DNA of 64,000 bases from Kordiimonas laminariae (GTDB taxonomy: Bacteria; Pseudomonadota; Alphaproteobacteria; Sphingomonadales; Kordiimonadaceae), in contig NZ_JAKQZA010000010.1 of NCBI RefSeq assembly GCF_023008165.1, positions 1 through 64,000 on the forward strand, written 5' to 3'. The notes beneath the pieces are model-generated. The model did no database searches. It saw only the letters and a list, made by a program, of their open reading frames with translations, and was not told the DNA's origin. Both the position numbers and the translations under genes were made by a program. Shown in pieces: positions 33,141 to 38,025 of the stretch. The stretch's first letter is position 1. The number at the start of each line of letters is the position of its first letter.

Positions 33141-34250
33141 ATGGAAACTGAAGGTCCTGGTTTGTTTTTAACTATTATCGCTTTCCTTGGCGGCTTTAGC
33201 GTATTGGTCTTTATCCATGAATGGGGCCATTATTCTGTAGCGCGTTTTTTCGGTATTCGTGTTGATACTTTTTCTATCGGTATGGGGAAAGAGATATGGG
33301 GCCGAACTGCAAAATCAGGCACTCGTTGGCGTATTAGTGCTATACCGCTTGGTGGGTATGTAAAGTTTTTTGGTGATGCGTCAGCTGCCAGTAACCCCGG
33401 TGATACTCCTGAAGGGCTTGCAGAAAAAGAAAAAGCTGAATGCTTCCATTATAAGCCAGTTTGGCAACGTGCTTTAGTTGTATTTGCTGGACCAGCGGTT
33501 AATTTAATTGCTGCTGTGCTTGTATATGCGGCTTTCTCTTATGGATATGGTATTAGAATTGCCGAGCCTGTGATTAATCAAATTCAGGCTGAATCTGCAG
33601 CCGAAAAAGCAGGTTTGCTGCCAGGTGATCGTATTCTGTCTGTCAACGGCTCCTCTATAGGCCGGTTTAGCGATATTCAAGACCAAGTGAGATTAAATCC
33701 CGGAAGAACTATTGAAGTGATTGTTGATCGGAATGGTCAGCAAACGGCAATTCCTGTCTTGCTTGATATTACCTACATGGAAGATCGGTTTGGAAACAGG
33801 TATCCGCTTGGTCGACTTGGAGTTAGTTCGAACCAGCTGAAAGTTTTGGATTTAGGTCTGGTGGGTGCATTGGGTGAGGGCGTTCGTCAAACTGTTTCAA
33901 CAGCTGATATGATGCTTACTTCAATGGGGCAGATGATTCTCGGCATCCGATCAGTAAAAGAGATGGGCGGGCCAGCCAGAATAGCGAATATGGTAGGTGA
34001 GGCAGCTGCTATTAGTTGGGAGCGGTTTATTCTAATTCTTGCCTTATTATCGCTTAATTTAGGCATTGTTAATTTGTTACCGATTCCGGTGCTAGACGGC
34101 GGACATCTGGTGTTTTATGGGTTGGAGGCGATTAAGGGTTCGCCTCTTAGCAAGAAGGCTCAAGAGGCAAGTTTTATTGCCGGAATGGCCTTAATGCTAA
34201 TTTTTATGGTGTTTGTGACACTGAATGACTTGCAATCTATGGCGCTCTAG
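33141..34250 (+). CDS. rseP: RIP metalloprotease RseP
   Basis: RseP is the site-2 intramembrane protease that clips anti-sigma factors and remnant signal peptides. The 369-residue protein has the zinc motif HEWGH (His26, Glu27, His30) in the first helix, one PDZ domain (about 130-205) where E. coli has two, and the LDG motif at Asp319 (PIPVLDGGHL) in a C-terminal helix. Gene order dxr-rseP-bamA is conserved. Confidence 0.95.
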   Translation: METEGPGLFLTIIAFLGGFSVLVFIHEWGHYSVARFFGIRVDTFSIGMGKEIWGRTAKSGTRWRISAIPLGGYVKFFGDASAASNPGDTPEGLAEKEKAECFHYKPVWQRALVVFAGPAVNLIAAVLVYAAFSYGYGIRIAEPVINQIQAESAAEKAGLLPGDRILSVNGSSIGRFSDIQDQVRLNPGRTIEVIVDRNGQQTAIPVLLDITYMEDRFGNRYPLGRLGVSSNQLKVLDLGLVGALGEGVRQTVSTADMMLTSMGQMILGIRSVKEMGGPARIANMVGEAAAISWERFILILALLSLNLGIVNLLPIPVLDGGHLVFYGLEAIKGSPLSKKAQEASFIAGMALMLIFMVFVTLNDLQSMAL

Positions 34251-34317
34251 GCCAATTTCTCCGCCGGGGTTCCATGAAGTATGTTGTTTGTGCCAAGAAT
34301 AAGAATAGGCTGAAACG

Positions 34318-36936
34318 TTGCGTTTAAATATTTTGCGTTTGATACAGAGCTGTAGTTTAGCTCTGATTCTCGGGGGAGTAACACTAAGTGGGCAAGCATT
34401 TGCTCAACAACAGCCTGTTGCTCAACAACTTCCTGTTATTCGTCAGATTAGTGTATCTGGTAACGAACGGGTAGAACCTGAAACGATTGGATCTTATCTC
34501 ACAGTTAAAGTTGGAGATCGTTTTGATCCTACGCAGCTTGATATCAGCCTGAAAAACCTGTTTGCTACAGGGCTGTTCTCTGACGTTGATTTCCAAGAGC
34601 AAAATGGCGCGTTGATTGTGCGGGTTGTAGAGAACCCTATCATCAACCGTGTTATCTTTGAGGGTAACAAAAAACTCGATAACGAGGAGCTTGCGGAAGA
34701 ATCCCGTCTTCGTCCACGTACTGTATTTACTCGTGCGAAAGTTCGTTCTGATGTAAAGCGTATGCTGGAGCTATACCGAAATAAAGGTCGTTTCGCGGCT
34801 ATCATTGAACCGAAAGTTGTTCAGTTAGAGCAAAACCGTGTGGATCTTGTTTTTGAAATTCAGGAAGGCCCCAAAACTAAGGTAAGCCGTATTAATTTCA
34901 TTGGTAACAAGGTGTTTGGTGACGGTGACCTGCGTGATGTAATGGCAACGAAAGAAAGCCGTTGGTGGAAGATTTTTACATCCCACGATACATTTGACCC
35001 AGATCGTCTGGCGTATGACCAGCAAGTACTACGCAATCATTATCTGAATGAGGGTTATGCTGATTTCCGTATTGTATCAGCTGTTTCAGAGCTGACCTCG
35101 GATCGTGAAGACTTTTTCATTACGTTCTCTGTTGAAGAGGGCGAGATATACACTTTCGGTGAAATTAAGGTTGAAAGTGAAATCCGCGATATTGACACCA
35201 ATCTGTTCCGGCTATTTGTTCGGATGCGTGAGGGCGGTACTTATAACGCCGAAGCGATTGAGCAATCTATCGAATCTCTTACAGATGCAGCTGGTCGCCT
35301 TGGTTATGCTTTTGTAGATATTCGCCCGCAAATTAATCGTAGCCGCGCTGATCGTACGATTTCTATCACATTTAAAATTCTTGATGCACCTAGAGTGTAT
35401 GTTGAGCGGATTAACGTGCATGGTAACGTAACTACTCTCGATAGGGTAATTCGCCGTGAGTTTCGCCTGCAGGAGGGCGATGCCTTCAACTCAGCTCGTG
35501 TGACACGTTCAGAAAATCGTTTGAAACGCCTGAACTTCTTCCGTGATGCGACGATTGAACGTTCTCAAGGCTCTAAGCCAGATCGTATTGTCCTTGATGT
35601 TAATGTAGAAGAACAAGCCACTGGTGAACTTAACGTTGGCGCCGGTTTCTCAAGTATTGAAAACTTTATTTTTGACTTCTCTATTCGTCAAAGAAACCTA
35701 TTTGGTAAGGGGCAAGACCTTCGCCTTGGACTGCGGCTTTCAAGCCGGAGCCAAGAGATTGACCTAGGCTTTACCGAACCTTACTTCTTGGGGCGTAGAA
35801 TCAGTGCAGGTTTTGATATCTTTGCCCGTAGATTTGATAACTCAAGATTTGGTGCAGCGTTTAACCAGGATTCTATTGGTTTCTCACTTCGTGCTGGTAT
35901 GGCTATCAACGAGTTTTGGACACTTTCCACCCGCTACACTCTACGTAGAGATAATGTAGATTTGGTAGACTCGTTTGTTACCAACAATAATAACAATGGT
36001 ATCTTCGATACCTTTTTCTCTGGAATTCAGAACGAGTTTGCAAACGCTGATGCCATTGAGCGTCAAGAGCTTCTCGATCTTTATGATACGAACCAATCAA
36101 ATACTATTGAGATTGAAGATTTCAGTGCGGACGGGCTGTCTACACCAACGACAGAGGAACTAGCTCGCGCGGTACCTACGCTATCTCGTGCTTTCATTGA
36201 TAGTTTGGGCTCACGTTTCCAATCTATCATTGGCTATTCCGTTGGTTTCGATACGCGTAACCATATCATTAGACCGACACGTGGTAGCTCGTTCTACTTC
36301 CACCAGGATTTCGCTGGTTTGGGCGGGGATGTACGTTACTTAAGAAACCGGGTAAACTTCGATAATTACTGGACACCATGGCAGGGCTGGACCTTCCGTC
36401 TGGGTGGTGAAGGTGGTTTCATCACTGGTCTTGGTCAAACAGTTCGTGTGAATGATAAATTCTATATTGGTGGCCCGCGTATTCGTGGTTTCGATAACTC
36501 TGGTATTGGCCCAAGAAACTTCAATGGTGGTAATGCCAATACTGCATCGTCACTTGGTGGTACTGCATTCTATATTGGCCGAGGGGAACTATTCTTCCCG
36601 CTGGGTGATCTAGCACTAGAAAGTGGTATCAATGCGTCAGCCTTTATTGATGTAGGGTCGTTGTTCAGAGCACAAGAAGAGCTAGCGGAATGTACGTTCT
36701 CGCGTGCTGACTTTGAGGCTTTCCAGCTTGCTCGCGAACAAGATCCAACAGTAACATTTGGTCAAGATACAGTTTGTCTGTCTGGTAATTCACCATCACC
36801 ACGTATTTCTATTGGTGTAGGTGTTTCCTGGCAGTCGCCTTTTGGTCCGTTCCGAATTGATTTAGCTAAGACAATTAAGCAGCAACTTGGTGACAGACCA
36901 CAAACACTACAGTTTAACGTTGGTACAACGTTCTAA
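34318..36936 (+). CDS. bamA: outer membrane protein assembly factor BamA
   Basis: BamA inserts beta-barrel proteins into the outer membrane. The 872-residue protein has a signal peptide (1-29, cut after AFA), five POTRA domains (about 35-430) and a C-terminal 16-strand barrel ending in the aromatic NVGTTF. IRPTRGSSFYF is the family barrel motif, and the lid-loop motif appears as IRGF. The start is a TTG at 34318 with only a weak AGG upstream; no ATG in frame lies nearby and the signal peptide begins there. Residues about 551-625 form an insertion between barrel strands with an Asn run (556-560) and an EF-hand-like loop (590-601), unusual for the family. Confidence 0.95.
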   Translation: MRLNILRLIQSCSLALILGGVTLSGQAFAQQQPVAQQLPVIRQISVSGNERVEPETIGSYLTVKVGDRFDPTQLDISLKNLFATGLFSDVDFQEQNGALIVRVVENPIINRVIFEGNKKLDNEELAEESRLRPRTVFTRAKVRSDVKRMLELYRNKGRFAAIIEPKVVQLEQNRVDLVFEIQEGPKTKVSRINFIGNKVFGDGDLRDVMATKESRWWKIFTSHDTFDPDRLAYDQQVLRNHYLNEGYADFRIVSAVSELTSDREDFFITFSVEEGEIYTFGEIKVESEIRDIDTNLFRLFVRMREGGTYNAEAIEQSIESLTDAAGRLGYAFVDIRPQINRSRADRTISITFKILDAPRVYVERINVHGNVTTLDRVIRREFRLQEGDAFNSARVTRSENRLKRLNFFRDATIERSQGSKPDRIVLDVNVEEQATGELNVGAGFSSIENFIFDFSIRQRNLFGKGQDLRLGLRLSSRSQEIDLGFTEPYFLGRRISAGFDIFARRFDNSRFGAAFNQDSIGFSLRAGMAINEFWTLSTRYTLRRDNVDLVDSFVTNNNNNGIFDTFFSGIQNEFANADAIERQELLDLYDTNQSNTIEIEDFSADGLSTPTTEELARAVPTLSRAFIDSLGSRFQSIIGYSVGFDTRNHIIRPTRGSSFYFHQDFAGLGGDVRYLRNRVNFDNYWTPWQGWTFRLGGEGGFITGLGQTVRVNDKFYIGGPRIRGFDNSGIGPRNFNGGNANTASSLGGTAFYIGRGELFFPLGDLALESGINASAFIDVGSLFRAQEELAECTFSRADFEAFQLAREQDPTVTFGQDTVCLSGNSPSPRISIGVGVSWQSPFGPFRIDLAKTIKQQLGDRPQTLQFNVGTTF

Positions 36937-36966
36937 TAAGCTCATAGGGAAAATGGGAATAATAAG

Positions 36967-37554
36967 ATGACATTCATCAAAACACTAAAACTTGCAGTTC
37001 TTGGAGCTATTACAGCCGCTGGACTAACCGTAGCGGCGACTGCACAAACATTTATCATTGATAATGAGCGTGTTGAAAAAGATGCCGCTGCATATAAAGA
37101 TTTCAACCTACAGACAACTGATCTTCGTCAGAATATTCTACAGTTGCGTCAATATATTTCACGTGGTGGTGCTGCTGAACAGCAGATGGCTGAACTGGAA
37201 AAGCAAAAGGCAATTATCGGTAACGATAAGTATGAAGAAGAAAAGAAGAAAATTGAGCAAACATATGTAGCCGCTCAACAGAACCTTCAGGCGTATGAGT
37301 ATCTATTTGATCAGGTTCGTCAAGAAGCTCTTGTTCAGGTTGAACGAGCACGTCAGCCTGTTATTCGTCAGATTTTAAAGGATCGTAAAGCGCAGTTGAT
37401 TTTGCCTAAGCGCCTCGTTCTAGGTAGCGCTCCAGGTCTTGATGTAACGACAGAGTTTATTGAGCTGCTTGATGCAGAGCTACCATCTGTTACACTAACA
37501 AAATTGCCACCAAAGCAAGCGCCGACAACTACGCCTGCACCAGCGCAGCAGTAA
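36967..37554 (+). CDS. skp: OmpH/Skp family periplasmic chaperone
   Basis: Skp holds unfolded outer-membrane proteins on their way to BamA. The 195-residue protein has a signal peptide (1-26, cut after ATA) and a long charged helical section (about 55-135) that would form the coiled-coil tentacles. A Pro/Thr-rich tail follows. Sequence identity in this family is low, so the call rests on length, architecture and the position directly after bamA. It is likely co-transcribed with bamA. Confidence 0.88.
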   Translation: MTFIKTLKLAVLGAITAAGLTVAATAQTFIIDNERVEKDAAAYKDFNLQTTDLRQNILQLRQYISRGGAAEQQMAELEKQKAIIGNDKYEEEKKKIEQTYVAAQQNLQAYEYLFDQVRQEALVQVERARQPVIRQILKDRKAQLILPKRLVLGSAPGLDVTTEFIELLDAELPSVTLTKLPPKQAPTTTPAPAQQ

Positions 37555-37581
37555 TCTCTAATTTAGGGTAGAGTGTAAGCA

Positions 37582-38025
37582 ATGGAATTCGATATTGCTA
37601 AAATTATGGAAGCGATACCTCATAGGTATCCCTTCCTTTTGGTTGATAAGATCATTGATGTAGTGCCTGGTGAAAGCGCTGTAGGCATTAAGAATGTTAC
37701 TATCAATGAAAACTTTTTTCAGGGGCACTTTCCGCAGAAACCAGTTATGCCAGGCGTTCTTATTTTAGAAGCGATGGCACAGACAGCTGGTGTTATTGCG
37801 ATCGATGTACTTGGAGATGATGCTAAAGGTAAGGTGGTTTACTTTATGGGTATTGATGGTGTGAAATTCCGTCGCCCAGTTGGACCAGGTGATCAATTGC
37901 ACCTTAAGCTTAACAAGACCCGTGGCGGACCTGGAAAAAGCGTTTGGAAGTTTGATGCAGTAGCTGAGGTTGAAGGCGATGTAGCTGCAACAGCTAGTCT
38001 AACAGCGATGCTTTCTGCTGAATAA
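37582..38025 (+). CDS. fabZ: 3-hydroxyacyl-[acyl-carrier-protein] dehydratase FabZ
   Basis: FabZ dehydrates 3-hydroxyacyl-ACP in fatty-acid elongation. The 147-residue hot-dog-fold protein has HRYPFLLVD at 14-22 and catalytic His49 and Glu63 in [11 protein letters not shown] and LEAMAQ. In most proteobacteria lpxD precedes and lpxA-lpxB follow fabZ in this cluster. Here fabZ follows skp directly and is followed by a terminator. Confidence 0.96.

Follow-up and report, generated by a model that had tools for sequence, protein, structure and literature searches.

A candidate EF-hand-type calcium loop in extracellular loop 4 of BamA in the Kordiimonadaceae

The bamA locus and its eL4 insertion

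BamA is an essential protein that has mostly been studied in E. coli, and its topology is established, with the POTRA domains on the periplasmic side. In the window (the whole stretch of 64,000 nucleotides analysed here), the open reading frame at 34318-36936 scores 728 bits against the BamA model TIGR03303, well above the cut-off of 297, and belongs to that family. A domain scan of its product recovered POTRA in five stretches together with an Omp85 barrel at 212.9 bits. The gene order at 33141-38025, which differs from that of E. coli, is rseP-bamA-(ompH/skp-like)-fabZ, with no lpxD in between; the names rseP, ompH and fabZ are presumptive, having been assigned by reading, without a family search. 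The features of the window that are discussed below are as follows.

34318-36936, forward strand: bamA, 872 amino acids, with five POTRA domains and an Omp85 barrel
35968-36183, forward strand: eL4 insertion, residues 551-622, of about 60-70 residues, short or absent in other families
35983-36018, forward strand: N-run NNNNNGIFDTFF, residues 556-567, with no conserved calcium motif
36001-36045, forward strand: predicted helix, residues 562-576 (model residues 136-150)
36052-36084, forward strand: predicted entering helix of loop 1, residues 579-589 (model residues 153-163)
36085-36120, forward strand: EF-hand-type loop 1 DTNQSNTIEIED, residues 590-601, with ligand columns conserved in the family
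36124-36159, forward strand: degenerate loop 2 SADGLSTPTTEE, residues 603-614, a loop whose ligand head is retained in 21 of the 27 family members
36151-36171, forward strand: predicted exiting helix, residues 612-618 (model residues 186-192)

The first-pass annotation had described a polar insertion between barrel strands, likely forming an outer-surface loop; the insertion is confirmed, and its surface position is supported. Alignment and structure model agree in placing the insertion between strands 7 and 8 of the barrel. AlphaFold2, run on residues 427-872 with 20 sequences (mean pLDDT 71.8), makes the strands at 534-549 and 631-645 the seventh and eighth, with three helices between them, and a Foldseek search with the resulting model matched the barrels of E. 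coli BamA (9cs2_A, E 1.7e-21). As the POTRA domains are periplasmic, the loop between strands 7 and 8 should be extracellular. When aligned to E. coli K-12 BamA, the insert falls between E. coli residues ~539 and ~549, a position in extracellular loop 4 (eL4). The eL4 of E. coli BamA is not known to have a metal site.

The length of the insertion sets the family apart. The alignment columns 535-645, which cover eL4 and its flanks, hold 96-120 amino acids (median 102) in 27 BamAs of Kordiimonadaceae, as against a median of 43 (40-75) in 39 BamAs from other families of the order and 53-71 (median 60) in the 38 BamAs of one further family, f5, which is counted separately throughout. A median of 43 (40-66) was also obtained for 63 BamAs from other orders of the class, although rates in those orders are rough because these BamAs, taken from 122 genomes, were chosen partly in favour of long matches (20 were taken by top score and the others partly for length). 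For the other families of the order, 39 of the 41 genomes with a BamA were used (G048 and G198 were left out), while all 38 f5 genomes were counted. Among the BamAs sampled, then, this segment differs from the ordinary loop of alphaproteobacteria, so that the first-pass annotation withstands the first of its own refuting checks.

Within the family, 27 of 29 genomes contain a full-length or nearly full-length match to a profile of the segment; the remaining two (G022 and G024) gave no BamA and were excluded from the counts. A scan of contigs returned 19 loci, from Kordiimonas aquimaris, K. gwangyangensis, K. marina, K. sediminis, Pseudokordiimonas caeni, Eilatimonas milleporae and related metagenome genomes. 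Some of these loops are identical to loops of the family genomes analysed here, for example that of L059 (K. aquimaris) to L009, that of L066 to L017 and that of L068 to L018. As L009, L017 and L018 are from the genus of the window, the family is probably Kordiimonadaceae and the genus Kordiimonas.

Calcium-type loops and their conservation

Residues 590-601, DTNQSNTIEIED, follow the 1-3-5-7-9-12 pattern of an EF-hand loop, as had been read directly from the sequence at the outset. Judged by the PROSITE pattern PS00018, the window's copy has oxygen ligands at positions 1, 3, 5 and 12 (D590, N592, S594 and D601) and a hydrophobic residue at position 8 (I597). It retains Asp1, Asn3, Ser5, Ile8 and Asp12, but position 5 is without the Asp of other copies, and the glycine of position 6, which 20 of the 24 distinct family members have, is replaced by asparagine (Asn595). 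No other match to the pattern exists in the 23,162 residues of the window's frames (stop to stop, at least 150 amino acids), and when the 75-residue insert is shuffled, 0.37% of the shuffled versions contain one.

The ligand pattern of loop 1 is retained in 25 of the 27 family BamAs. A second loop begins 13 residues after the start of the first, as in the insert of L008, FDRNGDGTVTEVDFDTNDDGVFQDTE; its ligand head (positions 1, 3 and 5) is intact in 21 of the 27, and 20 combine it with the pattern of loop 1. The exceptions include L026, which retains loop 2 only, and L027, which retains neither. A PS00018-type pattern anywhere in the loop is likewise found in 25 of the 27, compared with 1 of 38 f5 BamAs (L222), 0 of 39 from other families and 0 of 63 from other orders. 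The two sets of 25 are not the same, since PS00018 fails in L022 and L027 and the loop-1 ligand pattern in L026 and L027.

For column statistics, the near-duplicates L002, L012 and L020 were removed from the 27 rows, leaving 24 distinct ones; the entropy test scored the 64 columns that had 12 gaps or fewer. The columns of lowest entropy in the insert (590, 601, 614, 608, 594, 603, 592, 595, 597, 602 and 605) are the ligand and core positions of EF-hand loops. Mean entropy is 0.89 bits over the eight ligand columns and 2.50 bits over the rest outside the core; 100,000 random draws of eight scored columns produced no set as low. At position 12 of loop 1, 22 of the 24 distinct members carry Asp, not Glu, a replacement that may weaken the selectivity of an EF-hand for Ca2+. 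The EF-hand-type loop is a trait of the Kordiimonadaceae at large, of which the window's copy is a diverged member.

The N-run at residues 556-567 had also been singled out beside the EF-hand-like loop, but as a calcium motif it does not stand: a 5-residue stretch within NNNNNGIFDTFF occurs in 3 of the 24 distinct members, and DxDxDG is absent there. Members without the stretch read NSLGSGVFD and NSSGVGTFD at that place, and the run itself is a local expansion.

As for the window's own lineage, a tree built without the insert places its BamA within a group of six rows (L001-L005 and L022), four of which (L001, L002, L004 and L022) have lost loop 2 and kept the ligand pattern of loop 1. In the window's species, SADGLSTPTTEE stands in place of loop 2, and loop 1 is kept. 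Compared with the nearest relative, L002, the insert shows 18 synonymous differences, of which 1 falls in core codons and 17 elsewhere, and a single nonsynonymous one, a ratio that leads us to reject decay of the insert in this species; the insert is under purifying selection. Flanking DNA differs between the two at 96 and 136 of 1200 bases.

Codons that differ between the window's species and L002 are concentrated at residues 545-630 (35950-36207): 20 of 86 differ there, against 81 of 789 in the remainder of bamA (Fisher p 0.001), and almost all of the differences are synonymous. A similar excess is seen between L019 and L020 (p 0.004), not between L011 and L012 (p 0.17). Swapping of loop alleles is possible on this pattern.

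Profile searches, structure models and known calcium loops

Pfam EF-hand_6 matches 21 of the 24 distinct family segments, and the best Pfam EF-hand E-value among the 24 is 8.6e-7 (EF-hand_5). The window's segment stays below the gathering cut-off (15.1 versus 25.4 bits), as does that of L003 (18 versus 25.9 bits). The 97-residue segment of the window, taken alone, reaches an EF-hand E of 0.016; a scan of the whole protein gave no EF-hand model at E up to 10. EF-hand models matched none of the 38 f5 segments, and for 102 other alphaproteobacterial segments no EF-hand model occurs among the 25 of 28 matched families in the matches listed. Searched against the PDB, a profile restricted to the loops picks up calmodulin and centrin at E ~1e-7. 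Taken with the conserved ligand columns, the Pfam and calmodulin/centrin matches support the reading of residues 590-601 as a putative calcium loop. A search for a donor in five family genomes returned, besides BamA, weak matches only for the same loop (E 0.004 or worse).

In the structure model, residues 567-616 are predicted to form a helix, a loop, a short turn, a loop and a helix (pLDDT ~78-90). The entering helix (579-589) is predicted, but loop 1 is followed by no more than a single turn (599-602), and the exiting helix (612-618) lies where loop 2 ends. A separate model of the L058 loop (20 sequences, mean pLDDT 73.5) contains a helix at 37-43 that corresponds to the predicted entering helix. 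With this model, the best Foldseek match has an E of 7.8 and an EF-hand protein (2opo_D) appears at E 9.9 with a probability of 0.04, and all VIA-align Z scores against the 10 top Foldseek chains stayed below 2. No EF-hand fold match was thus obtained for the L058 model, although a missing match does not prove that the folds differ.

A standard packed pair of EF-hands needs more room than a 13-residue spacing of the loops allows; this spacing and the absent fold match led us to reject a complete EF-hand pair. Because of these two results and the score below the cut-off, we speak of an EF-hand-type loop rather than of a member of the EF-hand domain family, like which it probably works without belonging to it.

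Among known systems, the whole protein is that of BamA/YaeT (TIGR03303), with POTRA domains and barrel, and bears its insert where E. coli has eL4; other sampled BamAs are far shorter there and are without two EF-hand-type loops. With the EF-hands of calmodulin and centrin (PF00036, PF13202 and PF13405) the loops share the 12-residue ligand pattern, the hydrophobic residue at position 8 and an entering helix. However, the hands of those proteins are separate and packed, while here the second loop follows 13 residues on and no fold match was found. Dockerins carry Asp at loop position 12, as most family members do, and the dockerin type I model (PF00404) weakly matches 8 of the 24 family segments at E up to 1 (best 0.00019); it is absent from the Pfam matches of the window's segment, and the two ~22-residue repeats with a linker that characterise dockerins are not seen in the Kordiimonadaceae alignment. 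In thrombospondin type 3 repeats, DxDxDG-type loops follow one another at ~13 residues, as they do here, but the Kordiimonadaceae loops keep ligand 12 and hydrophobic 8 of the EF-hand, and the TSP3 model is not among the 14 Pfam families matched by the family segments.

Possible roles and the lipopolysaccharide setting

Taken together, these data make it fairly probable that the eL4 of Kordiimonadaceae contains a helical insertion with an EF-hand-type calcium loop at its core, which acts as a structural staple and is joined in most members by a second such loop. A structural Ca2+ site that orders eL4 is the most likely function. In such a site, an extracellular divalent cation, most likely Ca2+, would be held by D590, N592, S594, the backbone carbonyl of residue 596, E598 (perhaps through a water molecule) and D601. 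The bound ion would tie the entering helix to the segment that runs back into strand 8, and eL4 would thereby become a rigid cap beside the barrel opening on the outer face. The loop-2 site would add a second ion in most members, and the window's species would keep site 1 alone.

A precedent exists in BtuB, an outer-membrane barrel in which Ca2+ in an aspartate cage restricts the motion of an extracellular loop (PMC7360065). BtuB is an unrelated barrel; its site is not described there as an EF-hand, and calcium tunes substrate affinity (PMC7360065). Among the literature matches listed, part of whose text was available, no EF-hand-type loop in BamA is described, subscription journals and preprints being outside the scope of the search. 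A family-wide calcium-type loop on the outer face of BamA would add to a drug target a new element, stabilising or regulatory. The antibody MAB1 is said to bind BamA at eL4. MAB1 is an inhibitory antibody against E. coli BamA (PMC6287456). A calcium-type eL4 would offer a ready test of the function of this loop.

Several other explanations have to be weighed against a structural staple. Chance resemblance within a polar loop draws some support from the modest E-value of the window's isolated segment and from the empty whole-protein scan, but the rarity of the pattern in shuffled inserts and, above all, its distribution (25 of 27 in the family against 1 of 38, 0 of 39 and 0 of 63 elsewhere) in effect refute it at the level of the family, and we regard it as scarcely credible. 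The loop could also be a surface that diversifies to escape phages or predators, with the acidic motif as solvent-exposed filler. Outside the motif, the insert is indeed free to vary in length and sequence, and codon differences from L002 are denser in and beside it (20 of 86 versus 81 of 789). Nevertheless, the most conserved columns are exactly the EF-hand ligand positions and the extra differences in the window's lineage are almost all synonymous, so that this explanation seems unlikely. Alternatively, a partly filled site might act as a calcium sensor or gate whose occupancy alters Bam activity and couples insertion to external calcium. It would be well placed, as eL4 faces the extracellular side of an essential insertase, and the tandem loops of 20 of the 27 members could make binding steep. 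Seawater calcium, however, is always plentiful, high and nearly constant, so a sensor would find little to sense, and the window's species has lost loop 2 with no visible decay of the insert; we consider a sensor quite improbable, and the site would serve as a structural staple rather than as a switch.

The remaining alternative concerns the membrane itself. A search for LpxC in 59 genomes of the order, that of the window included, gave no match, and its control recovered the protein in 4 of 14 known genomes, E. coli and Caulobacter among them; given this result, the outer membranes of the order probably have neither lipopolysaccharide (LPS) nor lipid A. In an LPS-free outer membrane, Ca2+ or Mg2+ bound by the loop might bridge eL4 to anionic lipid head groups or to a surface polysaccharide, and this idea gains from the absence of LpxC as well as from DxDxDG motifs in the eL4 of 20 of 38 f5 BamAs of the same order. 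Yet LpxC is likewise missing from the other families of the order covered by the search, and DxDxDG occurs in the eL4 of 0 of their 39 BamAs, a count that speaks against the bridge and leads us to reject loss of LPS as a full explanation of the loop. We give such a bridge only a slim chance. A calcium-type eL4 would nonetheless bear on how Bam acts in outer membranes that are probably without LPS.

The motif of f5, which is probably Sphingomonadaceae, is a different one, with DxDxDG (in those 20 of 38) followed by two nearly invariant cysteines, as in the example L053, FFSDFDGDGVRECEPLLAGRYLC.

L053:1724-2023: f5 eL4 motif example, with the same region in 37 other f5 BamAs

From its sequence, the eL4 of f5 is likely closed by a disulfide, perhaps binds calcium and probably has a separate origin. 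In the BamA tree, the window's family and f5 each form one group and are not sisters: f5 groups with L035, and the window's family with other families in which the motif is missing, this second fork being supported at 82/96. Because the two groups are not sisters, independent origin of their motifs is the simplest reading; one gain followed by several losses is a less simple alternative. A broader proposal, that several alphaproteobacterial lineages independently built calcium sites in eL4, that protein insertion or the closure of the BamA cap thereby came to depend on external calcium, and that such a calcium-controlled insertase suits LPS-free outer membranes, strikes us as rather doubtful.

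Two observations concern eL4 outside these families. The sole f3 BamA, L035, the closest to f5 by tree position, has an acidic, glycine-rich eL4 within a 75-residue region, and this eL4 contains no DxDxDG. Among the 63 BamAs of other orders, two (L145 and L152, of family f10) carry a DxDxDG-like run in eL4.
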